From: a virus
Reading direction: 5' to 3' (one strand)
DNA: 64,000 nucleotides
Virus record (IMG/VR): IMGVR_UViG_3300033064_003457
Coordinates: 1-64,000 of that record
The notes below the pieces were generated by a model. The model searched no databases, had not been told where the DNA came from, and saw only the letters and a list, made by a program, of their open reading frames with translations. Both the position numbers and the translations under genes were made by a program. Shown here in pieces: positions 8,433-58,265 of the stretch; position 1 is the stretch's first letter; the number at the start of each line of letters is the position of its first letter.

Positions 8433-9635
8433 TTATGTTGTGGTAGTATAAGTTAATGTTATAGAATCAAACAAAGGGCTACTAGAGTCTCCTGTCTCCT
8501 GGGCTATCTCAATCATCACCCAGATACTATCTGTAGCATAGGTAGTTATCTCCAGCTGACTATCTACTGTTATCGGAGAGTTAGAAGACGTCCACACTGG
8601 TGTGTCTGAATCAAAATCATCTTGAGAGATGTATAAATATGCTTTATATTTTATGTTATCGTACCCAGGATCTGTTCTCAACGATGTTATTTTTGATAAC
8701 AATCCTGTCTCGTAGCTTGGTAATGTAAACTTAACACCTATCTTGCCACTTGGTTTATATTCAACCTTTTCTATCCCTATCTCCTGAGCCCCATAGACAA
8801 ATGTTTTATAATCTTCTTCTAGCTCATTGTTGCGTTGTCTAAGATAGAATCGCATTTTTGTTGGCTGAATATTGTTAAAAGAATACATCTTGCTTCTTAT
8901 GTTGTTTTCTCCATCGACAGGAAATGTTGGTAGTATGTTATCTTGAGAGGTTAGGGTATCATACTCAACATCAGTTACATCTATAGTCCCGTCGGGGTAT
9001 GGCTTAAAAAATACCTTGTTGACATATGGGTTACTCATAGATGGTAATGTTAATTCTAACTCACAGGATATTGAGTCCTTGACATGGTCTCTATTAAATC
9101 TTACCTTTCTTTCCCACACTGACTCATCTGTTCCATCAAAAGCATTAAGTACGCTAAGCTCTTCCACCTTAACGTTTCCATCTTCATCGCTAGGAGTAAC
9201 ATCTACAGATAGGTCTGGCATCCTATATATCTTTCCATCAGATATGCCTATCGTGTATACTTTTGAAAAACTATTACTAACAGGAAGGGTTACTATGCCA
9301 AACTGAGTGTCTACAACACATTTTTCCCCGTCAGGGAGATCCTCTGGATAGGTTGTATCCTTCGTTAGATAGAAGTCCTCATGGAACATCTTGTACCCCG
9401 ACGCAGCCCTATCATAAGCGGACACAAGACCGCTGACAGCATATAGCCTAGAGCTTATTGCTCCAGTATCATGCCTTATCCGTGACTCTATGTTATTTAA
9501 ATCTACAACTAGTGAAGATATATCGGCGAAAGCAGTATTTAAATCGTATAAAATCTGCTCAAAATTCGTGTTCATATCCGCCGAAGAAGTATTACCTCTC
9601 CATGTTGATTTAATCGGCGTAAATGTTGGCGGCAT
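8433..9635 (-). CDS. Tail-associated structural protein
   Basis: A 400-residue protein with a helical N-terminal third (about 20-80) and a beta-rich remainder. The N-terminal pattern SADMNTNFEQILYDLNTAFADI recalls the DYNxTMxExxxDL segment at the start of the three large fibre paralogues at 17715-24592. It also shares with them a phrase of the type DTxxGIVTLP. It is therefore likely a shorter relative of that family. The ATG is preceded by AGGAGGG. It is the first gene after the radical SAM cluster and returns to the structural theme. Confidence 0.65.
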   Translation of the reverse strand: MPPTFTPIKSTWRGNTSSADMNTNFEQILYDLNTAFADISSLVVDLNNIESRIRHDTGAISSRLYAVSGLVSAYDRAASGYKMFHEDFYLTKDTTYPEDLPDGEKCVVDTQFGIVTLPVSNSFSKVYTIGISDGKIYRMPDLSVDVTPSDEDGNVKVEELSVLNAFDGTDESVWERKVRFNRDHVKDSISCELELTLPSMSNPYVNKVFFKPYPDGTIDVTDVEYDTLTSQDNILPTFPVDGENNIRSKMYSFNNIQPTKMRFYLRQRNNELEEDYKTFVYGAQEIGIEKVEYKPSGKIGVKFTLPSYETGLLSKITSLRTDPGYDNIKYKAYLYISQDDFDSDTPVWTSSNSPITVDSQLEITTYATDSIWVMIEIAQETGDSSSPLFDSITLTYTTTT

Positions 9636-9646
9636 TCTTATCCCTC

Positions 9647-10564
9647 CTATTTATAAAGACACTTCCTGTTTTTATATATATGTTTTTGTGCATAATATGT
9701 TTTCCAGCACATCCCAGGGCAAGTGTTTTGTTTTTCACAATCGTTACATCCATACCAATCTAGTACCTGTTGGTATCCATAATCAAGATACTCTAAATCG
9801 TTACACAATCTATCCCATTCCTTATCTTCTATCCAAGATGGCTTCCTAGTAAATCCAGCACATGTAAAAACGCCCCTTGATGTTATCGCTTTTAAATGAT
9901 TAGATACACATCTTACTGCTGGAAAATCAGATTTTAATTTAATGTTTTTATAGGAGAAAGAAAATCCGTCCATCATAACCGGTTCTTCCCAATCTATAGC
10001 TGCATACTTACTTAATTTCTTTATGTACGGAACGTAGTCATCCTTGCTAGTCATCAATATTCCTATGCGAAGGATATTGTCAAGTCTTTCTAAATTTTCC
10101 CAGTATCTCTTTTCTTTTTCTCTAGTTTTTATTCTCTCGGTGCTAAATGGAACTAAAATATTTACATTAAATTTCTTGCTTAATATTTTAGCAAAATCTA
10201 CACCACTCTTGCTTATGTTCTCTAGTGACAGTGGAATATCGAAGCACCCCCTATCTCCTATAAATTTGTGTACTATTGAGAACAGATTTGTTAGCTTTCT
10301 TCTGTACACTGGGTCAACAACTAGCTGATCCATAAAAAGCTCACCACCAAATATTCTTACTATTATATGTGAACTATCATAGTCGTATTTTGACAATGTG
10401 CTAATTACATTATTGTAGAGCTTTCCCCAATCTCTGTCGCCAACTACACTCTTGTTAAGGAAACAAAACTTGCATCCGCCAGTGCATAGAGATGTTGGTA
10501 CTATACTTATTTCTCTCCATGGATGATTTCTTCGACGCTCCATTATGCTACATGTTTGTGTCAT
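9647..10564 (-). CDS. Radical SAM enzyme with C-terminal SPASM-like cysteines (fourth of four)
   Basis: A 305-residue enzyme with the 4Fe-4S/SAM motif C27-x3-C31-x2-C34 (CTGGCKFC) and the SAM-binding GGE motif (FGGELF). The C-terminal part carries CNDCEKQNTCPGMC and a last Cys five residues... near the end (NRKCLYK), a pattern of auxiliary Fe-S ligands like those of SPASM/twitch peptide maturases. Such enzymes commonly install thioether or C-C bonds in ribosomal peptides. The ATG at 10564 has GGAG six bases before it and overlaps the previous gene by 17 bases. It is the last gene of the modification module. The substrate is inferred from context, not from sequence. Confidence 0.85.
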   Translation of the reverse strand: MTQTCSIMERRRNHPWREISIVPTSLCTGGCKFCFLNKSVVGDRDWGKLYNNVISTLSKYDYDSSHIIVRIFGGELFMDQLVVDPVYRRKLTNLFSIVHKFIGDRGCFDIPLSLENISKSGVDFAKILSKKFNVNILVPFSTERIKTREKEKRYWENLERLDNILRIGILMTSKDDYVPYIKKLSKYAAIDWEEPVMMDGFSFSYKNIKLKSDFPAVRCVSNHLKAITSRGVFTCAGFTRKPSWIEDKEWDRLCNDLEYLDYGYQQVLDWYGCNDCEKQNTCPGMCWKTYYAQKHIYKNRKCLYK

Positions 10565-11648
10565 TTAAAACTCCATAGTTGCTATGCACCCATTCAACAA
10601 ATCTTTTGGCACCTATACATTCATCGCTATCATCATACTCATCCTTGTATACCTCGGATAAGCATCTACCGGCATAATCACAGACAAGACAATCTGCTCG
10701 GTTATTAACTAGGCGTTGCTTGTACAGAAACGACTTTCTTTTATCTGAATTTACTATATCCTCAAAAGAAGACTTGTCGCTCAATCTTCCAAACTCTTGG
10801 AGGTACTCTTCCTTGTCACTATTATATCCCATATACAAAAATCTCATTCCTCCATCGATGAACACAACCTCGCCACCAAGAGCAGTTCCTATGTCATTTC
10901 GATGCGCTACATCATATATCATTCCACTTTTTTCTTTATGGCCACGCTTAATGATTTCCTCGTGTACTGCTATGGAAAAATCAGAGAACTCAGACATGTT
11001 AGTTGCGTATTTATTCCACAGATGCCGTTGTCCTTTGATTGGTATAAACTGCTTTAGGCTAAAGCCAGCCAGGCAACCAAGATTCTCTAGAACATCAACA
11101 TAATTTTGTGGACCCAACTCTAGCATTGTCTTGTTAACCACAGACATAACACAGACTCTTACTCCTGCCATGCGTAGTTCTTTAACATTCCTAAATAACT
11201 TTTTGTTGTATTCTTCTCCGCGCATTAATCCATCATAGCTGACAGCTGACAATTCTTCTCCATTACTCTTTTCTGACATATATTTTAATAGAGATATCCA
11301 ACCGTCATTCATTTTTTGCAATGACGTATATATATCAAAGACAGCGTTGCTATAGAATTCTTCTATGTTTGTTAGCATAGACCTTATGTACTCTGGAGAT
11401 AATGTTTGTGGCTCAGCTCCATACAGAGTGAACTTAATCCTGTTCCATTTTGACCTATAATCTTTCATTGATTCCAAAAGATTTCTAAGATCAGATATAG
11501 ACATGTCTGAAGACTTATCCTCCTTAGACATAGCCTTAAGATAACAAGATGGGCAATTATTAAAGCATCTGTATGTTATCCATAGGTGGGGATTAAAGTA
11601 TCCTGTTTCTATGCTTAGTATCGGTTGAGACGTAGCCATGTCTATCAC
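10548..11648 (-). CDS. Radical SAM/SPASM-type enzyme (third of four)
   Basis: A 366-residue enzyme with C28-x3-C32-x2-C35 (CFNNCPSC) and GAEP in place of GGEP. The C-terminus has CLVCDYAGRC followed by a distal Cys (DECIGAKRF), resembling the second half of a SPASM domain. The usual first SPASM cysteines, in the Gly-rich turn near residues 265-280 (GGMRFLYMGYNS), are missing, so it may bind only one auxiliary cluster. The GTG at 11648 overlaps the upstream stop (GTGA) and is preceded by GAGGGG; the ATG at 11639 is the alternative start. Coupling implies balanced synthesis with its neighbours. Confidence 0.85.
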   Translation of the reverse strand: MIDMATSQPILSIETGYFNPHLWITYRCFNNCPSCYLKAMSKEDKSSDMSISDLRNLLESMKDYRSKWNRIKFTLYGAEPQTLSPEYIRSMLTNIEEFYSNAVFDIYTSLQKMNDGWISLLKYMSEKSNGEELSAVSYDGLMRGEEYNKKLFRNVKELRMAGVRVCVMSVVNKTMLELGPQNYVDVLENLGCLAGFSLKQFIPIKGQRHLWNKYATNMSEFSDFSIAVHEEIIKRGHKEKSGMIYDVAHRNDIGTALGGEVVFIDGGMRFLYMGYNSDKEEYLQEFGRLSDKSSFEDIVNSDKRKSFLYKQRLVNNRADCLVCDYAGRCLSEVYKDEYDDSDECIGAKRFVEWVHSNYGVLNDTNM

Positions 11649-12739
11649 GAGCAGTACCCCTCGTCTCGTATATAGTTTTTTATGTAATTAGAAAAACTAT
11701 CGTTATGTTGAATGTGGTGAGATATAACAGAAAAAAAACTTTTACTCTCATAGCATTCCTTACTCTGACAGCACCCGCCATTGCAAGCTGGGAAGAATTC
11801 ACACTCCATGCATTCCTTTCTTTGGAATCTTTCTCTTATGGCCATGTCTCTTCTTTTGGTAGAATTAGCAAAATCACTGAAGTTATCATCAAGTGTGCAT
11901 ATTGGATTATCTTTACTAGTATTGGGGCAGGTGCCAACAGTCCCATCAGAGTTTATTGTCATAACAGTCAACATACAATCGCGACCAGAACAACCGATAT
12001 ATCTCCCATCAAAAAAAGATTTTGCTTTACGTACAATCTCATTCTTAGGAAACTTTGTATACAAATTACTTTCTATCAAGTAGTTAGCAAATTCTGCTTT
12101 CCATTCACCGTAGCGCTTGGTGTCTATTGCTATTTTATTCCAGTTTTTATCGGCCAGTCCATTCCTTGTTACCGGTTCAAAATGAAAACCATATATATTA
12201 TTATCGACAAGAAAATGTATTAAATCTTTAGGCTCATTCTCTCTGATATAATCGTTCGATAATGTTATAACTAAATACACATCTAACCCATCTTTCTTAC
12301 ATTTTTTTATATTTTCTAACCAGACCTTTTCATGGCGCTTGTCTTTGTTAACAAATCTAATTCCAGGAGAGTATGATGTTCCAACTTGACCATTTAATCT
12401 TTTCTTTATAAAATTAACCAATGGAGTATTGTACATCAATAGATTAGTCTGTATAGAAAAATCCATGTCCAAGAACGGTAGCGATGATTTTATAGTCTTA
12501 TATATGTTTTCTAGTTTTTTTACTCCTAGCAATGTTGGCTCTCCGCCATGGAACACAACATCTATAAACATACCCTGCCTATTCTTATCTATGTATTGTC
12601 CCATGGATGCCAAGAATGGACTTAATCTTTCTTCTTCCAATACAGAGCTTGTGTCCCCCGATGCATTATAACAATGCAAACACTTAAGATTGCACTGCTC
12701 AGTTGGTTTTATGTATAGTGTCATCCTATTTTTTAACAT
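11645..12739 (-). CDS. Radical SAM/SPASM peptide maturase-like enzyme (second of four)
   Basis: The most canonical member of the set, 364 residues. C16-x3-C20-x2-C23 (CNLKCLHC) binds the SAM cluster and FHGGEP binds SAM. A full SPASM domain follows: CSGRDCMLTVMTINSDGTVGTC, then CMECEFFPACNGGC and a further Cys. This architecture is shared by anaerobic sulfatase-maturing enzymes and by sactipeptide/ranthipeptide maturases. There is no sulfatase in the window. The ATG at 12739 has GGGG upstream and overlaps the preceding gene by 14 bases. Confidence 0.92.
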   Translation of the reverse strand: MLKNRMTLYIKPTEQCNLKCLHCYNASGDTSSVLEEERLSPFLASMGQYIDKNRQGMFIDVVFHGGEPTLLGVKKLENIYKTIKSSLPFLDMDFSIQTNLLMYNTPLVNFIKKRLNGQVGTSYSPGIRFVNKDKRHEKVWLENIKKCKKDGLDVYLVITLSNDYIRENEPKDLIHFLVDNNIYGFHFEPVTRNGLADKNWNKIAIDTKRYGEWKAEFANYLIESNLYTKFPKNEIVRKAKSFFDGRYIGCSGRDCMLTVMTINSDGTVGTCPNTSKDNPICTLDDNFSDFANSTKRRDMAIRERFQRKECMECEFFPACNGGCCQSKECYESKSFFSVISHHIQHNDSFSNYIKNYIRDEGYCS

Positions 12740-13643
12740 ATGATATCCCCTTTAATTTTGAAAAGAACCGCTTTGCAGATTCACAATAATTTGTATCATC
12801 ATAGGATTCAACCATCCAGTTACGTATTGTACATCCCCTACACAGATTAAAGTGATCGCATATAAAACACTTCTTTGGTATATCATATTTTAAGTCTTTT
12901 CTCTCTTTTCTCATGTCACCCATTACTGGACATGGGTACGAAGAAAAGTCTGTCTCTATATTAACCATTACATCATCATTGATACATGTTTTTATGTATG
13001 GGCAGATATCGTTTCCACCTTTTAGTGAGTTAAGTATATTTGTAAACGGCTGTATTTCATGGAACCCACTCTCTATCCATGCATCTATCAATCTAGTATA
13101 TATATCAAACACATCTGAAACTTTCAATATTCTTTCTTTGTGCCTGGCGGCTAGGCCAGATGGAACAATATAGTTTATCTTTAGTGGAAAATCCTTTGCT
13201 ATAGAGCTACTTACCCATTCTTCTGCTTTAAGCAAAGATACGTTCTTGTTGGTATCTAATACTATTAGGACAGGCGGTGAGTACCCAACCACTTCCCTAA
13301 CCATCTCGTATGCAGTAAAAAAATCAGCCACGATATCAAACTTGTCACCACTGACTGACAGTCCCTGGAAATTTTTATGTGTTAGCACGCAATCCCACGA
13401 AGAGTCATATAGCATGATGTTTGACTGCAAAGAAAACTTAAGCCCCTTATCCAGTAGTTCTGAGTAATATTCAGGAGGTAGCATCATTGGCTCTCCCCCA
13501 ATAAGAAGAACATTTTCTGACTTATATGTATCGTACAGTCTTACTATATCTCTCTGCTCTATGTATCCGTCTCCACTAGTAGAACAAAACCAACATTTAT
13601 TATTACAATTTAATACATTTTTAATAACTAAAAATTTATTCAC
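12726..13643 (-). CDS. Radical SAM/SPASM-type enzyme (first of four)
   Basis: A 305-residue enzyme with C13-x3-C17-x2-C20 (CNNKCWFC) only 13 residues from the N-terminus, then GGEP. The C-terminus has CINDD...YPCPVMGD and CFICDHFNLCRGC with a last Cys in NYCESAKRFF, a complete SPASM-like set. It is compact, lacking the N-terminal extension that some maturases use to grip leader peptides. Translation begins at GTG (13643) with GAGGT upstream, and the start lies inside the end of the preceding gene (8-base overlap). Confidence 0.88.
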   Translation of the reverse strand: MNKFLVIKNVLNCNNKCWFCSTSGDGYIEQRDIVRLYDTYKSENVLLIGGEPMMLPPEYYSELLDKGLKFSLQSNIMLYDSSWDCVLTHKNFQGLSVSGDKFDIVADFFTAYEMVREVVGYSPPVLIVLDTNKNVSLLKAEEWVSSSIAKDFPLKINYIVPSGLAARHKERILKVSDVFDIYTRLIDAWIESGFHEIQPFTNILNSLKGGNDICPYIKTCINDDVMVNIETDFSSYPCPVMGDMRKERKDLKYDIPKKCFICDHFNLCRGCTIRNWMVESYDDTNYCESAKRFFSKLKGISYVKK

Positions 13644-14598
13644 TTCTTACCTCTATAGGGAAAAGATCCCGCTTGCTTTTGCAGTTGCTTGTTATTACAT
13701 AATTGCCATCCTTTAATACGCTTAATATATCGCTATCCGACATCCCATCGATACTGTCAATGTGCACTGGCTGTTTTTCATTGTTATTAATGTATCTTTC
13801 TGTAAGTAATGAATAGTCTACTGTAGGAGCCAAAGCATTTATTACCATACCCTTAAATATTGATATAGCATAGTCAAATTTCTTGTCTGTAGGATATGCT
13901 CTATATGGATTGTACTTCATGTCTCTCATCACAAAAGCTAACGGAACATACAGCCCTGATTTAATTCTATATTGGCAATCTTCTATCTTGCTATTATTGT
14001 TGCCAGAATGATAGTCGTATGCCACATCAAAAAGATACTTACAGTGGTGCTTAAAATCATCCACGAATTGCCTATTGGTATCTATCATGTGCAGTAGCAT
14101 CCACTTGGACCATTCGTTGATAAATTCAAAAGTATACTTATCTTTTATGTAAGTATAATATATGAATTTGTTTAGCACAGTACTTACTATTTCATCCCAC
14201 TTATCAAATATGTCTATATCATAAAAATGTCTCATGTACAAAGCATATAGTGATACTAGAACTATTATTTTTGCCGGATAAACTATCTTCTTCATATCTG
14301 TATCTATGTAACTTACAAGCAATTCTTCCATTTGACTGTCTGTGACATTCTTTATTAATATATTAATATTAATATTATTTGACAGATTTATAATATGTCT
14401 TCCTGACAGGTCAAGGCTTTCGAACTCAGCAAACGTTGTATTTAGTGCATTGCTGTTAGTCATCTCTAGCTCCAAGAGCTTCTCAAATATCTTATAGTCT
14501 ATTGGATAATCTAGCTTTATTATGTAATCTGTGGCGTCGTTGTAGTGATTCATTAAATACGATATCTTGTCTATATATTTTACCTTACTTTTTACCAT
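13636..14598 (-). CDS. Unknown protein of the radical SAM module
   Basis: A 320-residue, mostly helical protein with many Tyr, Asp and Ile and no recognised family. The central part (VYPAKIIVLVSLYALYMRHF) is hydrophobic but looks like a buried helix rather than a clear membrane span. The C-terminus contains GYVITS-like beta segments and one Cys (SNCKSKRDLF). It overlaps both neighbours (14 and 8 bases), placing it firmly in the modification module. A role as a substrate-recognition or scaffolding partner for the radical SAM enzymes is possible but is inference. Confidence 0.65.
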   Translation of the reverse strand: MVKSKVKYIDKISYLMNHYNDATDYIIKLDYPIDYKIFEKLLELEMTNSNALNTTFAEFESLDLSGRHIINLSNNININILIKNVTDSQMEELLVSYIDTDMKKIVYPAKIIVLVSLYALYMRHFYDIDIFDKWDEIVSTVLNKFIYYTYIKDKYTFEFINEWSKWMLLHMIDTNRQFVDDFKHHCKYLFDVAYDYHSGNNNSKIEDCQYRIKSGLYVPLAFVMRDMKYNPYRAYPTDKKFDYAISIFKGMVINALAPTVDYSLLTERYINNNEKQPVHIDSIDGMSDSDILSVLKDGNYVITSNCKSKRDLFPIEVRSE

Positions 14599-14851
14599 TT
14601 ATAACTATACCCCCATCAACCATATCAAACCCTAAGCTATCAATTTTTCTAGACAAACTGTCAGGTATCTCTGAGTTTATTTGTATCTTAATACTATTAG
14701 CTATACACTCAACATCAAAACTAATATTATCGCTCTTTAGCAATTGTACTAGAAATGTTATCTTTACTATCTGGCTATTAGTAAAGCTATCATAGCTGTT
14801 ATCAATACAATCAAAAAGCTTATTTTCTAATTCATAAATTTTCAATGACAT
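14585..14851 (-). CDS. Small unknown protein of the radical SAM module
   Basis: An 88-residue protein. I choose the ATG at 14851, seven bases after GGGAG, over a TTG one codon earlier. The predicted fold is an alpha/beta mix: helix (IYELENKLFDCIDNSY), helix (SQIVKITFLVQLLK), then strands with alternating hydrophobics. Size and position next to radical SAM genes recall small partner proteins such as RRE (RiPP recognition element) domains or HxsD of His-Xaa-Ser systems, but no diagnostic motif of either is seen. Confidence 0.6.
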   Translation of the reverse strand: MSLKIYELENKLFDCIDNSYDSFTNSQIVKITFLVQLLKSDNISFDVECIANSIKIQINSEIPDSLSRKIDSLGFDMVDGGIVINGKK

Positions 14852-15281
14852 CAATTATCTCCCGTTGATAGTAAAATAATTCAACAGTCTCATCTGTTGA
14901 CTTTCTTTCTTTCCTTATAACGTCACCACACTCTATTACGTTTTCACCATATTTTTTAATCTCAGATTTATAGTCTTCAAGATTAGATACTATGGTAATA
15001 TTGTAATCCCTAATACTTATCGGCTTAAGCCTTACAAGACTCCTTAGGGTATATTCATCGCCGTCTTTGCTATGGATAAAAGGCATTGAGTAAAATAGAG
15101 ATTCTACTAAAACAAGAAGTAGTCTGGCCCTTGACCCACTGTTTAGATACTGGTGGGTAATGACCTCTTTTAACTTAGGTATAAATTCATCATCTACGTA
15201 TGCTGCGTTAGCAGGACAATACTCAGTCCAGGTGTCTATTGTTGGTATCTTATTGTTAGGCCAAAGTAAAATTAGTCTCAT
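14832..15281 (-). CDS. Unknown protein of the radical SAM module
   Basis: A 149-residue protein. The start ATG at 15281 overlaps the upstream stop codon (ATGA); the longer open frame upstream of it lies wholly inside the neighbouring gene and is ignored. The C-terminal half is rich in charged residues and strand/helix alternation (YNITIVSNLEDYKSEIKKYG). Two cysteines (one in EYCPANA, one in VIECGDV) are spaced too far apart to suggest a simple metal site. No family is recognised. Overlaps on both sides tie it to the module. Confidence 0.6.
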   Translation of the reverse strand: MRLILLWPNNKIPTIDTWTEYCPANAAYVDDEFIPKLKEVITHQYLNSGSRARLLLVLVESLFYSMPFIHSKDGDEYTLRSLVRLKPISIRDYNITIVSNLEDYKSEIKKYGENVIECGDVIRKERKSTDETVELFYYQREIIDVIENL

Positions 15282-16201
15282 CGTATGGGCCTCGCTTCTT
15301 CTGGTGCTTTTCCTAAAGGATAATAGCTTAAAACAAATAACTGCATTTCGTCTACAGGTATATGTGGTCTTGATGGTACGAACACAAGAAAGTTCCCATC
15401 TATCCCTCTGCTTATCCATCTAGAGAAAACATCCTTTTTTAATCTAACTAATATGCTGTCAGTTTTTTCTGTATAGAATAATCCAGTTAAACTGTCCAAG
15501 ACCTGTAATATGGCTCTTGGTTTATAATATTTTTTGAAATTATTTTTAATCTTAACGTAATAATCTCTGCCCATTGGTCTATAGTAAACAGATCCTTCCT
15601 TGATCACGAATGAACATATCATGGAATTAAAGTTTACACACATATTTAGTCCATGGTCATTATGCATTTTTATCAGTTCTTTTTCTCCATCCTTATCGTG
15701 AGCTAGTACTACATGAAGAGCCGTCCTATTTATCTTAAGCTGGTCTATTGGTATTTCTGTCCTCATATATGTATGGTCTACTGGTGCGGCATATTTATCT
15801 GCCTTTTGTGCGTAGTGAAAAAATCCATGCTGGAGTATCTGCATCGGTAAATTGCAATAAAATAATGACAAATTTTCCTTTGTAAACGTAGATAACTTAA
15901 ATGGCTCTTCCCACGAAGATAAACTTGGACCGCTTATTCCATCATCCCTAACCTCTAGTAGCCTATCCCATCCATCTTTATACCATTGCCAACAAACCTG
16001 GAACCAGTTGGCGAACATATCAAAGTACTCGAAATTTCTTGGTGTAAAGTCTAGATTAAAGTACTCTACAGCATCATCGTTTTTATCAACGTCAAAGTGA
16101 GACCATACTCCTTCATCTATTTTTTTCATGGGGACTCTATCTTTGTCACCACCGAACAATTGTGTATAGTAATCTGCTAGTTTTGTAAATTTTTCACTCA
16201 T
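15278..16201 (-). CDS. Unknown protein encoded directly after the Cys-tailed fibre
   Basis: A 307-residue protein using the ATG at 16201, two bases after the stop of the Cys-tailed fibre gene. It is rich in aromatic residues (FEYFDMFANWFQVCWQWYKDGWDRL), with a block of beta strands in the second half (ICSFVIKEGSVYYRPMGRDYYVKI). No family is recognised. The next gene starts inside its stop codon. Its immediate linkage to the putative substrate suggests a chaperone, carrier or enzyme acting on that fibre; this is inference. Confidence 0.65.
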   Translation of the reverse strand: MSEKFTKLADYYTQLFGGDKDRVPMKKIDEGVWSHFDVDKNDDAVEYFNLDFTPRNFEYFDMFANWFQVCWQWYKDGWDRLLEVRDDGISGPSLSSWEEPFKLSTFTKENLSLFYCNLPMQILQHGFFHYAQKADKYAAPVDHTYMRTEIPIDQLKINRTALHVVLAHDKDGEKELIKMHNDHGLNMCVNFNSMICSFVIKEGSVYYRPMGRDYYVKIKNNFKKYYKPRAILQVLDSLTGLFYTEKTDSILVRLKKDVFSRWISRGIDGNFLVFVPSRPHIPVDEMQLFVLSYYPLGKAPEEARPIR

Positions 16202-16203
16202 TG

Positions 16204-16764
16204 TTATCTTTTGCCTCTCTTGCAACTAGAGTAACAGCTAGAATGACAGCTGGAATGACACTCGCTTATTACTATATATTCAGTCCCTGCACTTGGAAAA
16301 AGAGTAGTGTTGTGTATGGCACATCCATCAACTATTATTTCTAATATATCCCTAGATGGACTTAATACTATATTTTGTATCTTGCCACCTGCTACTGGTG
16401 CTGTTATGTACGCTGGAATGGCAGTGGTAAAGCTTCCATCCCTTCTGCCTTCAACATCACTAGAGACTGCTGTCCTTCCATAATTCCATTCTCCGCTGGA
16501 GAGTCTCCTTCTACAGCTATCATATTTTCTCATGAAATTATATTTTGTTACAATACCATCGCTATCAGAGAAGTGAGCTGCACGTATTGCTATGCCAGAA
16601 GTTACTGTTCTGCTAACAGTAGTTTGTGTCGACTGTAATAGAACAGACGGAGTTATAGTGCCAGTAGTAGAAGATATGTTAACATTATTACAGCTAGTAA
16701 TAAGGTTATTTAATGTTCCTCTCGCAGAATTCCAATCTGTCGCTGATACTTTTCTTACAGACAT
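16204..16764 (-). CDS. Fibre-like protein with CHSSCHSSCYSSC C-terminus, candidate radical SAM substrate
   Basis: A 186-residue protein with GGAGG before its ATG. Residues 1-60 contain NSARGTLNNLITSCNN and Ser/Thr-rich stretches like short phage fibre shafts. Residues 60-165 are beta-rich (AYITAPVAGGKIQNIVLS). The end is unusual: Cys169, Cys173, Cys177 and Cys181 with His-Ser-Ser, His-Ser-Ser and Tyr-Ser-Ser between them, then the basic tail KRGKR. It sits first in a chain of nine abutting or overlapping genes that includes all four radical SAM enzymes. The evenly spaced Cys tail looks like a RiPP core fused to a virion protein. Alternatives are a metal site or disulfide-linked trimer tip. 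Confidence 0.75.
   Translation of the reverse strand: MSVRKVSATDWNSARGTLNNLITSCNNVNISSTTGTITPSVLLQSTQTTVSRTVTSGIAIRAAHFSDSDGIVTKYNFMRKYDSCRRRLSSGEWNYGRTAVSSDVEGRRDGSFTTAIPAYITAPVAGGKIQNIVLSPSRDILEIIVDGCAIHNTTLFPSAGTEYIVISECHSSCHSSCYSSCKRGKR
16222..16260 (-). repeat. 12-bp tandem repeat encoding the C-x3-C tail
   Basis: Read on the minus strand, the unit TGTCATTCCAGC is followed by TGTCATTCTAGC (one change), TGTTACTCTAGT (three further changes) and a final TGC. The unit encodes Cys-His-Ser-Ser or Cys-Tyr-Ser-Ser. The two first copies are nearly identical at DNA level, so recent expansion by slippage or duplication is plausible and repeat number may vary between relatives. Confidence 0.85.
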
Positions 16765-17714: not shown

Positions 17715-20051
17715 TTAATACCCCAATTTTATAGTGTAAGAATTTAGTGTAGGCGTTGTTATCGGCGATGAATCATCGTTTCTTGATAATACAGCCTTTA
17801 AGTATATATCATTTGTCTGTGTAGATATATATTTGTATGACAACACATATGTCTCAGCCCCATCAGGACAAAGCATGTCATCTGAAGAAGAGGACCATAG
17901 TGACGTTTGTGGCTTATAGTTTACCACTATTTCTTTATTGCTATCGCCATCATAATCAATAACACAGAACCTAGAGTGATTTGATTTTAATGTGTTGTTT
18001 TTCAACTCAAACCAGCTAACCTCTTGTAACTTCTCGGCATATGCAAATTGTCTATACACTTTTTGATATAAATATTTGTCATCATTAACACTATAGAATC
18101 TATCATTATCTTCACGTGGCTCAGCAGTCGTTACAACTTTATGCCAGCCTGGTGGTATATGAAAAAATGTTTCTGATGACAGATCTATTATTCCCTCGGT
18201 TGTAGTTATAGTTGTAAAGTTTCCAGCATCTTGCTCTGCAACGGTAAATGGAGTTATGTTAATATCTAGCCCATCGCTGTTCAATATATATATATATGTA
18301 GTATACTCAGTTGGCTCAGACTCTTCATCATCGTACTTATAGTCCACATATACAGTGTTTGATGGAGACTGTGGATCGTCCGATATATTGCTACCAGTAG
18401 TCTTAGTTATTATTTTTGTAGAATAGCTCACTTCATAATCACTAGAATTTACATATACATAGCCTGGATTTTCTCCAGGTTCGCTCTTAACTACGATAGA
18501 GCCCCTTATCAGTCCTTCACCATCTATGGCAGCAGAGGTAGGATATGTCAAAGTTATAGTGCTACCGATATCAAACGAATGCTCTTCATTGTAAATAGCA
18601 ACCCTCTTGACATCATACTTTGGAGTTACTTGCCAATTGTTTTTTCCTCTATAGATCTCAACGCTATCTCTAACTGGTTCATACGGAAACTCATACACTT
18701 TATAAAAATCCACACCCTTATAAGACTCTAGAGTAGCCCCATAGCTAGACTCGTCCCACTGTATGTCTGGAACATTAGTAAAGAATGAGACATGTCTAAA
18801 ATCAACAAGTTGCTGTTCTGTTGGTTCTTGTGAATTTACTGGACTAACTGAAACCCAATTATATTCTGTAGGATCATCCTCGCCTTCTTCACCAAGGGAT
18901 AGGTAATAATCTATTTTTGTTTCTGGCTGTATATCCTCTTCTGTTATTAGCACAGCTTTATCTATAGTACTTTCTTCTCCGGTAGGATCTTCCATTGTAA
19001 AAACATTGGAATATAATGTCGACGTTTTATTATAAGCCATCTCTAGGATTTCAATATTTTTAAATCCCACCGTGTATAGGTATGTTGATATATTTTCACT
19101 AGCTGCCATCTGGTCTTCTATGTCCTTAGTTACTACAAACTTTAAATATTTTGCCCTTAGTTCCTCAAAGTTCCATATGGTTTTCTTGTTGTCAGTTACT
19201 AGCTTATTTCCTACACCATATCCGATAGGTAATCTCTTAAAGTTTATATTATCTAGCGACCATAGAGGTTCAACCTTCATGTGATTGGATGATTGCCCCC
19301 GCATCTCTATCCTAGAAATATATGTACCCATATCAAGCTTAGGTGTTAGGTCTACAATGAAAGACACCACCAAGGCCCCACCTTTTGTGCTAATTATGCT
19401 TTGTGCCCACGAAGTGTTTATGTCACTAAAGGCATAACCAAACTTGCTATCCAACATAAGATGGTTAGATATTATGTTGTCGGCATATTCTTCGTCTGCT
19501 AGTATTGGATAATTCACAACATCAAAGTAGTGTGACATGTCTAATTTTTTTATTCCTTGGCGACTTTCCCTCAGGGTTACTATCCCCGCGTCTGTATTGA
19601 CTTCACAAGTAGAATATTCTAAGTTTATATTGCTTCTATCTATAAAACTATCATGAAATGAGTATAGATAACCTTCAGTGTCCTCCGCTACCAACAGAAG
19701 ATCATCAAGGTTTCCTTCCAGTTTTTTAATCTCATGCATAAGTTTTTGTCTTTCAGTGTCGTAATAATCAAAATCTTCTAGTATTATAGTGAACTGATCT
19801 ACTAGTTCCTCATACAGATTGTTTAAGTCATTGCTCAATTCTTTTAAGTTGTCATTGTACTTGTCAATATCCCATGCCTTCCTATAGTTTTGTGTGCGTA
19901 ATTTGAACGATGGCATACCAACGCTTATCATTTTATAGAATTTGCTTAGTTGTGATACTATGTGCTCCATAGTCGGAACATAGCCCTCTTTCATTCTCTC
20001 TTCTATGATTCTATTGACTTCTTTTTTTACTTGTCTGGATGCTATACTCAT
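17715..20051 (-). CDS. Large tail/fibre structural protein, paralogue A
   Basis: A 778-residue protein. The N-terminus is helical, with PSFKLRTQNYRKAWDIDKYNDNLKELSNDLNNLYEEL, the same pattern (P-x-h-K-L-R, then DYNxxxxExxxDh) as the next two genes upstream. A discoidin-like beta region follows (about 180-330), then several beta domains with Glu/Asp-rich loops and a C-terminal domain ending in YTIKLGY. Similar endings (Y-x-L-x-h) occur in its paralogues. It is probably a baseplate-peripheral or whisker protein. ATG start; four-base gap to the upstream gene. Confidence 0.7.
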   Translation of the reverse strand: MSIASRQVKKEVNRIIEERMKEGYVPTMEHIVSQLSKFYKMISVGMPSFKLRTQNYRKAWDIDKYNDNLKELSNDLNNLYEELVDQFTIILEDFDYYDTERQKLMHEIKKLEGNLDDLLLVAEDTEGYLYSFHDSFIDRSNINLEYSTCEVNTDAGIVTLRESRQGIKKLDMSHYFDVVNYPILADEEYADNIISNHLMLDSKFGYAFSDINTSWAQSIISTKGGALVVSFIVDLTPKLDMGTYISRIEMRGQSSNHMKVEPLWSLDNINFKRLPIGYGVGNKLVTDNKKTIWNFEELRAKYLKFVVTKDIEDQMAASENISTYLYTVGFKNIEILEMAYNKTSTLYSNVFTMEDPTGEESTIDKAVLITEEDIQPETKIDYYLSLGEEGEDDPTEYNWVSVSPVNSQEPTEQQLVDFRHVSFFTNVPDIQWDESSYGATLESYKGVDFYKVYEFPYEPVRDSVEIYRGKNNWQVTPKYDVKRVAIYNEEHSFDIGSTITLTYPTSAAIDGEGLIRGSIVVKSEPGENPGYVYVNSSDYEVSYSTKIITKTTGSNISDDPQSPSNTVYVDYKYDDEESEPTEYTTYIYILNSDGLDINITPFTVAEQDAGNFTTITTTEGIIDLSSETFFHIPPGWHKVVTTAEPREDNDRFYSVNDDKYLYQKVYRQFAYAEKLQEVSWFELKNNTLKSNHSRFCVIDYDGDSNKEIVVNYKPQTSLWSSSSDDMLCPDGAETYVLSYKYISTQTNDIYLKAVLSRNDDSSPITTPTLNSYTIKLGY

Positions 20052-56480: not shown

Positions 56481-57391
56481 CTTAAGTGTTACCCATAATT
56501 ATGGGGTCTAAACATTTCTGCTAGACTCTTGTGCTCTCACACAAGAACGGACTATATCATCATGCCCTTTAGCATGCCAGTCGCTGTTTTTATCGATTTT
56601 ATATTTCATAGAAGGAATTATATATTTAGATATTTGAGGAGATAATTTATCAAATTCTGTTCCGTTAGTCCTCAATCTGTACTTATCTCTTGTTTTGCTT
56701 ACTTTAAAATTTACTCCCAAAATATTCTTTAAGTGTTTGGCTAGAATGAGTTGATCTTCTATAGGATAGCAATCGGTACACAATGTAGCATCCCATCCAG
56801 CGCTTCTATACTTACCTATTCTATCGTGGTTACATCTATCTTTTTTCGTACATTTTTTAAAATGATGAAAAAGATTGCCATCATCCATCCACATTATGGC
56901 AAAACTTTGAGGGGTTATATAATTTAGTATATCTTTTGTTATTCTTTTATTGTTATTTATATATATTCTATTATATATATCCCTATACCAAGGATGCGCT
57001 CTACTTGTAGACGTAATCATTATTCTATCATCACAATAAGTTCCGATAGGTGAGTATTTATGCACTCTCATTTTTGTTACATCACTTAATAAATTTGTTT
57101 TCCAGGTTAGGTATTCTTCCTGTTTTCCGGAGTGGCACATAGAATAGTGCACGCTATTGCCTCTCTTGCATAAATAACCATCCCCAAGAATCATTCCAAC
57201 TATGATATCTTTTGTTTCTTTCTTGCTTGTTTTCAACATGGAATTTCTCCCAATAATTAGTTATCGATAAATTTAGTCTCTACGGGTTCCCTTATTGGGC
57301 TTCCCACGGTATTGCCCTCGACTTTACGTTAGGGGTTTCACCGTTTTCAACTGGTTTATTGAGCACACAAGAAATTCTCTCTATGCTCATT
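56481..57391 (-). ncRNA. Group I intron 2 in the MCP gene, with endonuclease ORF
   Basis: A 911-base insert. The 5' exon ends GATGT and the intron's own GCAT pairs with ATGT to give P1 with the conserved U-G at the splice site. The core shows ACGGTGAAACC..GGCAATACCGTG (P3-P6 region) and ATATAGTCCG (P7), then stem-loops CTTGTG/CACAAG, TCTA/TAGA and CCCCAT/ATGGG. The final base is G. The homing endonuclease frame lies inside and overlaps P7 and P9. Removal joins GT and GCAT in frame, supporting the boundaries. Confidence 0.88.
56508..57239 (-). CDS. LAGLIDADG homing endonuclease in MCP intron 2
   Basis: A 243-residue site-specific endonuclease that would spread the intron to intronless alleles. 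Two LAGLIDADG helices: IIVGMILGDG (12-21) and FAIMWMDDG (113-121), each followed by the beta strands of the half-sites. The ATG has GGGAG seven bases upstream. The 3' end extends into the intron core (P7-P9), so intron folding and translation compete. The frame is intact and probably active. Confidence 0.9.
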   Translation of the reverse strand: MLKTSKKETKDIIVGMILGDGYLCKRGNSVHYSMCHSGKQEEYLTWKTNLLSDVTKMRVHKYSPIGTYCDDRIMITSTSRAHPWYRDIYNRIYINNNKRITKDILNYITPQSFAIMWMDDGNLFHHFKKCTKKDRCNHDRIGKYRSAGWDATLCTDCYPIEDQLILAKHLKNILGVNFKVSKTRDKYRLRTNGTEFDKLSPQISKYIIPSMKYKIDKNSDWHAKGHDDIVRSCVRAQESSRNV

Positions 57392-57466: not shown

Positions 57467-57765
57467 CAATTTTGTTGCTACACGCGACCTGTTATATCTT
57501 CACCACAACAAGGACATATTAATTTGTGACCAGGAAGATGCTTTGAAACTGTTGTAAGTTCCAATTTTGTGTGGCTCGATCATTTCTGCCGAGCTCTGCA
57601 TGTTTCCATGCAGTTCAGACTATCGCTTCGCACATAAGTGCGTCCCATTGCTTAGTCGTTGCAGCTGCACAGATCTCTGAGATCTTGCTTGCTGTGGATT
57701 GCCATAGCTTTCGCCTTAGGGTTCCCCAATTAATCAAACGGGATTTAAACACGGCTACTTTGTTA
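57467..57765 (-). ncRNA. Group I intron 1 in the MCP gene (no complete endonuclease)
   Basis: A 299-base insert. The exon end TACGGT pairs with GCCGTG in the intron (six pairs including the conserved U-G at the splice site). The core GGGGAACC..GGCAATCC, then ACGACTA..ATAGTCTG (P7) and stem CTGCATG/CATGCAG (P9), closely parallels the td intron of phage T4. The stem GCTCG/CGAGC follows, then a tail ending in G. It contains a 33-codon frame without start codon that ends in CPCCGEDITGRV, possibly an endonuclease remnant. Confidence 0.85.
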
Positions 57766-58226
57766 ACCGTACCAGCTACTTCGAGTTTTCTTTCCGGATA
57801 TTCTCCGCCTTCTGGAATATCTTCAGCTGTAAAAGCACCAGCTGCTGGGAAAGTAATCTGTTGCCCGGCAGAAAATCTGATAGTATGTAACAAACTAGTA
57901 CCAACTAACAAGGGTTCCATGGCTTCCTTAACTACATTGGAAACAACTCTTCCAATGAGTATTGAAGCATCTGGGGTAGAAAGAGCATCAACTAAATCTT
58001 TATAACCAATTTTCTGATCTCTCTTAGAGGTATCATACTGGTCATTCTGATTTTCGTAACCATTGTTACGCCAAATTTTCCATGTATTGTCATACTTGTC
58101 TTGCAATTTACCATCGGAAAATTCAGAACTCTTACCTTCTACGCCTGCAGATTTCAATTGCTTGGTCACCTTGGCAGTTATTGTATCTACTAATTCTTCA
58201 TTCACTACCAACTTGTCGTCTGCCAT
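57766..58226 (-). CDS. Major capsid protein, exon 1 of 3
   Basis: First 153 residues of the 434-residue HK97-fold capsid subunit that forms the head shell. The ATG at 58226 is preceded by AAAGGAGGAAA seven bases upstream. Residues about 1-90 form the N-arm and first helices. Residues 115-150 (FPAAGAFTAEDIPEGGEYPE) are the characteristic E-loop/P-domain border of capsid proteins from large phages. The apparent open frame continues past 57766 into intron sequence; that part (WGTLRRKL...) is not protein. Exons: 58226-57766, 57466-57392, 56480-55712. Confidence 0.9.
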
Positions 58227-58265
58227 AACTATATTTCCTCCTTTATTTTTATATTTTAACCTCAA

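Follow-up and report, generated by a model that had tools for sequence, protein, structure and literature searches.

A nearly fixed C-terminal tail peptide linked to several classes of radical-SAM enzymes in tailed phages and predatory Bdellovibrionota suggests a putative system for modifying an attachment protein

Introduction

Peptide maturation by radical S-adenosylmethionine (SAM) enzymes is known chemistry, and several described systems pair such enzymes with a dedicated substrate. In the Hxs system (TIGR03977 to TIGR03979), the His-Xaa-Ser repeat protein HxsA is encoded with HxsB and HxsC. Sulfatase maturases and the cyclophane-forming radical-SAM/SPASM maturases of ribosomally synthesized and posttranslationally modified peptides (RiPPs; DynA, YhhB, AmcB, and FxsB) act on a sulfatase or a short precursor peptide, and the ranthipeptide and sactipeptide pathways (PapB, CefB, and others) form a third group. 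Here, we analyze an operon in a 64,000-nucleotide stretch of DNA (the window), positions 1 to 64,000 of the 75-kb IMG/VR virus record IMGVR_UViG_3300033064_003457, which comes from a contractile-tailed phage with sheath, portal, and baseplate genes. The operon encodes a fiber-like protein with the C-terminal tail CHSSCHSSCYSSCKRGKR together with four radical-SAM enzymes (rSAM1 to rSAM4). Well over 100 viral contigs combine homologous enzyme classes (here called A to E) with a tail of this kind, so the arrangement in the window is more than chance. The pairing of a near-fixed tail with a set of radical-SAM enzymes, which sequence comparison shows in many large phages and in some predatory bacteria, strongly suggests that an attachment part exposed at the surface is chemically altered in a way not described before.

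The substrate, the multiclass enzyme kit, the tail signature, and the phage and predator setting match no described system. An earlier note on this DNA had known of no phage system of this kind, and our search of the open literature likewise found no published description (preprints and subscription journals lay outside its scope, and a prior description is possible). Among the named radical-SAM families tested, none reached its defining score. As in Hxs, a His/Ser-repeat protein is co-encoded with paired radical-SAM enzymes, and one predator tail, CHSSHSSHSSHSSRGRR, resembles His-x-Ser repeats; unlike Hxs, the present system has many more enzyme classes, a C-terminal RGRR, and a virion setting. 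Membership in Hxs, considered for this His-x-Ser appearance, was rejected on the scores. None of 11 records passed the HxsA cutoff (TIGR03979, 121.65 bits), and no phage tail protein matched; the subthreshold matches were two at 19 bits, lying elsewhere, and controls also scored below the cutoff. HxsB gave 20 to 44 bits (best, 43.5; cutoff, 370) and HxsC gave 12 to 26 bits (cutoff, 267.9).

The sulfatase and cyclophane-forming maturases share their SPASM Cys pattern with class A, which can be aligned from end to end with peptide or protein maturases (sulfatase maturase, DynA, YhhB, and the SuiB structure). In contrast to those maturases, the enzymes here score far below the curated cutoffs, and their putative substrate is the conserved C terminus of a fiber-like protein. 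The anaerobic sulfatase maturase profile (TIGR03942) gave 74, 51, and 45 bits against a cutoff of 349.45, and Pfam detected no sulfatase in the window operon; DynA (NF041298) gave 119 bits for rSAM2 against a cutoff of 450. A regularly spaced, Cys-rich peptide beside SPASM enzymes is also the layout of ranthipeptide and sactipeptide loci, but here the Cys count runs from one to many and the enzyme match is weak and below cutoff (PapB, NF047865, 52.8 and 46.8 bits; cutoff, 340). Finally, the chimeric MAT fibers of Bdellovibrio are likewise predator fibers, with phage-like S74 tips and a role in prey recognition (PMC10769870, in whose main text the terms radical, cysteine, and post-translational do not occur); unlike those fibers, the present tail proteins are small, with pilin-like genes as neighbors.

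Results and Discussion

Tail and enzymes are linked from both sides

To examine the linkage from the tail side, viral contigs were scanned with a DNA pattern for CHxxCHxxCHxxC, without the use of any enzyme sequence. Matches to this first, wide Cys pattern were mostly repeat noise; in three loci (L080, L090, and L098), the motif stood as a tail at the C terminus of a protein plausible for a phage, and two to seven radical-SAM genes lay alongside each. A second pattern with added C-terminal Arg positions gave many more tail loci. Radical-SAM open reading frames (ORFs) occurred within a few kilobases of the tail in 110 of 114 tail loci versus 4 of 319 control loci (the profiles derive from tail loci, and the control rate for unrelated radical-SAM enzymes is perhaps somewhat low, but the difference is too large for this to matter). 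Controls were loci from the same scans in which the pattern match was not a C-terminal tail, and the four tail loci without a radical-SAM gene were short sequences or ended close to the tail gene. No match came from a tblastn search with the tail peptide alone, probably owing to the low-complexity filter.

From the enzyme side, an alignment of class A was searched against viral contigs and detected 361 relatives; the alignment was the closer set of 8 sequences, a set of 18 distant members being too divergent for scanning. Among the best 80 of the 361 loci, which were inspected, 4 ended too soon. In all 76 untruncated loci, a tail protein started at most 2.5 kb downstream of class A, and every one of these tails took the form CHxxCHxxCHxxR[GS]RR-end. 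Enzymes kept without a Cys-tailed fiber, the case that the earlier note had named as decisive against its proposal, were thus seen in 0 of these 76 loci. Because the linkage was found from both sides, the proposal that the tail and the radical-SAM enzymes form one functional unit is strongly supported by gene neighborhood.

These counts also bear on whether the enzymes could serve auxiliary metabolism, with a small molecule, a nucleotide, or a sugar as substrate and the tail gene a mere neighbor. The purely generic annotations of these phage radical-SAM genes would fit such a role, but the tail gene is the constant neighbor of class A (76/76 loci) and lies inside the enzyme cluster; we regard this explanation as extremely unlikely and strongly disfavored.

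The typical C-terminal peptide of the family, CHxSCHxSCHxSRGRR, is nearly fixed. Residues outside the search pattern were fixed as well in 118 nonredundant tails (Ser at −13, 107/118; Ser, Ala, or Asn at −5, 118/118; Gly or Ser at −3, 116/118; Arg at −1, 118/118). Synonymous codons for Cys, His, Ser, and Arg varied freely across 157 distinct tail proteins, and codon comparison indicates that the tail is conserved at the peptide level. In one locus (L214, 7956 to 8660), the tail protein carries about 12 CHxS units in blocks split by NVPV, ends in SNRGRR, and resembles a multicore precursor.

A conserved gene kit accompanies the tail

Clustering returned a set of recurrent families, comprising the tail protein, protB (approximately 241 amino acids [aa], in 91 loci), p367, a cupin/JmjC-like protein, a 2-oxoglutarate (2OG)-Fe(II) oxygenase, and radical-SAM classes A to E. 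The commonest gene order was cupin, rSAM-A, tail, protB, p367, rSAM-D. Each of classes A to E was monophyletic in the radical-SAM tree; class E is a divergent radical-SAM-like group to which Pfam is blind and whose links to the other classes appear at the profile level only. In a second subtype (L226, L251, L260, L280, L294, and similar viral contigs), two short tail proteins of approximately 126 aa lie in tandem, accompanied by several class E genes and few or no enzymes of classes A to D.

AlphaFold2 modeled the body of the tail-protein family and protB with confidence and the C-terminal tail with low confidence. Structure matches of the tail-protein body were to uncharacterized viral proteins only, including a protein of phage Atu_ph07, and the Foldseek results for protB contained no RiPP recognition (PqqD-like) fold.

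Among the recurrent families, no protease or exporter stands out. This matters for a reading in which the C terminus is cleaved to give a released RiPP with antimicrobial or signaling activity, a reading to which the dibasic look of RGRR and the many core-like repeats of some tails (such as that of L214) lend some weight. However, nothing follows RGRR at the end of the tail, and the phage genes are set among structural genes, which together with the lack of a prominent protease or exporter family makes a secreted peptide very unlikely.

The system also occurs in predatory Bdellovibrionota

A genome scan for the system matched contigs of Bdellovibrionota. protB was present in 17 of 369 Bdellovibrionota genomes, compared with 0 of 399 genomes in the phylum of the Pseudomonas reference and 0 of 195 in the phylum of the myxobacterial reference, and 15 of the 17 protB-bearing genomes had a tail ending in R-x-R-R. 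The loci examined lay among ordinary chromosomal genes, one of them in a single contig of 4.15 Mb beside respiratory-chain-like genes (named by eye). In the class A tree, phage and predator sequences interleave, which points to exchange of the system between phages and predators.

A pilin-like protein is encoded close by in many predator loci. Peptidase_S74 is a chaperone domain of phage tail fibers, and both pilin-like proteins tested (L589, 17076 to 18206, and L562, 13448 to 14503) carry it at the C terminus; one of the two has a pilin methylation motif. In most predator loci, a conserved protein of approximately 190 aa with a GRHWVKxK-like end (L589, 18215 to 18799; L585, 426 to 1010; L560, 7151 to 7705; and others) is encoded next to the pilin-S74 gene, and the two tested had no Pfam match.

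Predator tails vary (CHGNFPPPCHGSRGRR, CHTNVPTPPPCHASRGRR, CHSNHCSHSNHGSRGRR, and CHSSHSSHSSHSSRGRR). An initial Cys-His and a C-terminal RGRR are constant, whereas the number of Cys is not fixed, and in some predators one- or two-Cys tails (CHSSHSSHSSHSSRGRR and CHGNFPPPCHGSRGRR) stand beside the same enzymes. This variation bears on the earlier note's interpretation of the evenly spaced Cys as a sactipeptide or ranthipeptide layout, in which each Cys would be joined to nearby residues by radical-SAM thioether (sactionine- or ranthionine-type) links to give a stiff ladder. Such a ladder would suit the invariant Cys of CHxSCHxSCHxS in most phage tails and the SPASM enzymes, PapB-like matches included. 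Against this, Cys is no more constant than His, Ser, or Arg, the PapB scores (47 to 53 of 340 bits) are far below cutoff, and chromosomal members keep the enzymes with one- or two-Cys tails. Those tails speak against evenly spaced Cys thioethers as the general product, and the sactipeptide or ranthipeptide interpretation was not upheld; a thioether ladder is doubtful, though it deserves more weight than the other alternatives.

The same variants argue against a metal-binding tip. Metal-tipped phage spikes exist, regular Cys-His repeats would make good ligands, and the tail is placed at the extreme C terminus; the radical-SAM enzymes would then modify something else or install the metal or a cofactor. 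Yet variants keep RGRR while losing most Cys, simple metal binding needs no set of several radical-SAM classes, and the two-way linkage of tail and enzyme genes is strict. A metal tip is therefore unlikely.

The cassette lies among virion structural genes

Tail and kit were found in six isolated jumbo phages (Burkholderia SURPRISE13, FLC6, FLC8; Agrobacterium Atu_ph07; Sinorhizobium Phosso; Pseudomonas pPa_SNUABM_DT01), in which the radical-SAM genes are annotated as generic enzymes. Papers on SURPRISE13 (PMC11898562), FLC6 (PMC8066314), and Ralstonia phages phiRP12/RP31 (PMC5468394) name enzymes of this sort without a role. In Atu_ph07, virion proteins detected by mass spectrometry come mostly from three gene clusters, one of them coding sequences 170 to 215 (PMC6102473). 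The first gene of this cluster, gp170, encodes the tail protein; mass spectrometry detected the capsid protein, gp215, and the numbering also agrees for portal and baseplate.

Two virion structural genes flank the operon in the window, one upstream of the tail gene (17715 to 20051, minus strand; phrog_19683, E = 1e−47) and one downstream (8433 to 9635, minus strand; phrog_19670, E = 2e−26), the latter placing the operon inside the late structural region. The region of structural or fiber genes is the setting of the system in relatives also. Together with the Atu_ph07 virion cluster that starts at the tail gene, these positions bear out the structural-operon setting that had been proposed for the window.

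The window is a divergent member of the system

The nine abutting or overlapping genes that the earlier note had described from 16764 to 9647, with the fiber-like protein first, are all open, lie on the minus strand, and are translationally coupled: a 2-base gap after the tail gene is followed by overlaps of 4, 20, 14, 8, 14, 4, and 17 bases. The order is the tail protein, four proteins without assigned function (g2 to g5), and rSAM1 to rSAM4; the start codons of g2 and g3 were revised to ATG 16201 and ATG 15281. The tail protein (16204 to 16764) has 186 aa, a fiber-like body, and C-terminal residues ...EYIVISECHSSCHSSCYSSCKRGKR. Codons 16207 to 16260 specify the tail, the putative modified segment, and the last 25 aa matched the phage tail-protein family with an hhalign probability of 96.8. 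Accordingly, a CH...RGRR-type tail with a variant end is present beside class A; the class A gene shares the operon with the tail gene and is not its immediate neighbor.

All four enzymes carry one CX3CX2C motif (CNNKCWFC, CNLKCLHC, CFNNCPSC, and CTGGCKFC in rSAM1 to rSAM4), as had been claimed. The SPASM-like C-terminal Cys also claimed for all four are complete in rSAM1, rSAM2, and rSAM4; rSAM3 has the last four only and could hold at most one auxiliary cluster. Pfam Radical_SAM scores were 27, 35, 26, and 13 bits, with rSAM2 alone passing the cutoff, rSAM1 and rSAM3 below it, and rSAM4 far below; all four are recognized by profiles built from related phage enzymes, which places each in the radical-SAM superfamily. 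By profile and tree, rSAM2 (11645 to 12739, minus strand) belongs to class A (215 bits; sister to class A, support 98/94); it also matches phrog_1802 (E = 1e−36), and its closest described relatives act in the maturation of peptides or proteins. rSAM1 (12726 to 13643, minus strand) is placed equally firmly in class B (78 bits; sister to class B, 100/99). Assignment is weaker for rSAM3 (10548 to 11648, minus strand), probably class C (58 bits for class A and 40 bits for class C; sister to C with weak support, 92/39), and for rSAM4 (9647 to 10564, minus strand), probably class D on its profile (29.6 bits; E = 5e−10), with a tree placement that is not settled.

Of the remaining genes, g5 (13636 to 14598, minus strand; 320 aa) appears to fuse members of two accessory families of the system. 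Residues 24 to 103 are protB-like (hhalign probability 52; E = 1.4e−4), and residues 94 to 187 are YPAK-like (hhalign E = 4.9e−5; hmmsearch 18 bits, E = 2.9e−6); both matches are weak, and the register is consistent. g2 (15278 to 16201; 307 aa) had no significant match in Pfam, PHROG, or NCBIfam; g3 (14832 to 15281; 149 aa) and the small g4 (14585 to 14851; 88 aa) follow on the same minus strand. Taken together, profile and tree comparisons identify the window as a divergent member of the system with a reduced kit.

A putative substrate-plus-maturase cassette

Two-way linkage, conservation of the tail peptide, a conserved kit, a position among structural genes, and occurrence in both phages and predators are computational observations, and we propose that they reflect a substrate-plus-maturase cassette. 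A small fiber- or baseplate-associated virion protein would be made with a near-invariant C-terminal peptide. The co-encoded radical-SAM enzymes (classes A to D in the window) and accessory proteins (the protB/YPAK-like g5) would modify this peptide in the cytoplasm, either before virions assemble or while assembly is under way, and the product would be an altered, probably cross-linked, exposed C-terminal tip contacting the target-cell envelope. We hold this explanation as a whole to be quite probable. Within it, we infer that the radical-SAM enzymes, all four classes included, have the tail as their substrate, that they introduce a cross-link or some other product of carbon-centered radical chemistry, and that the modified tip touches the host. 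Occurrence in both phages and predators of Gram-negative cells is the ground on which we suggest envelope contact. A more far-reaching version, in which a so far unknown multienzyme radical-SAM system builds a complex covalent tip, has been exchanged between tailed phages and predatory bacteria, which alike need a hold on the Gram-negative envelope, and serves as a general envelope-engaging anchor, seems to us evenly balanced between being right and wrong.

Several points weigh against the proposal. The body of the window tail protein has no demonstrable homology to the tail-protein family, and its tail departs from the signature, with Tyr in place of His in the third unit and a KRGKR rather than an SRGRR end. 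Comparison of g2 to g4 with the accessory families of the system gave no match, and Foldseek against the PDB returned no informative match for the tail protein or protB. The presence of gp170 itself in the Atu_ph07 virion is read from the cluster boundary. The modification itself is putative.

Provided that the tail is modified, radical chemistry would serve hundreds of phages to build a nonstandard attachment tip, as it does in no phage described in the literature searched. The role-less clusters of radical-SAM, cupin, and 2OG-oxygenase genes in the jumbo-phage papers (PMC11898562, PMC8066314, and PMC5468394) would then be explained, and phage adsorption would be linked with the prey contact of predatory bacteria. 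The family signature provides a rule by which many unnamed genes can be annotated, as well as a new candidate set of peptide-modifying enzymes.

Relatives of the window phage and other observations

Searches for close relatives with rSAM1, the tail protein, and the 8433-to-9635 gene of the window as queries gave no matches. Across the 21 nearest phages by sheath, Pfam Radical_SAM produced one weak, frame-broken match only, and homologues of the 17715-to-20051 structural gene occur in relatives without radical-SAM enzymes. In three larger relatives with the upstream fiber gene (G014, G019, and G020), the stretches adjoining that gene contained no tail and no radical-SAM gene, which indicates that the cassette is optional in this lineage. 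In G019 and G020 (L545 and L546), distant relatives, genes for GDP-mannose dehydratase, a glycosyltransferase, and a sulfotransferase follow the shared fiber gene close to the site that the cassette has in the window, consistent with a possible exchangeable slot for surface-modifying or virion-decorating genes.

Elsewhere in the window, a LAGLIDADG homing endonuclease ORF lies at 56508 to 57239 on the minus strand (PF03161, E = 1.5e−30), and an Rfam search for an intron near it gave no match. The gene beside it (57615 to 58265) resembles a major head protein (phrog_3922, E = 9e−4), and the endonuclease ORF is possibly part of an intron or intein within the capsid gene.

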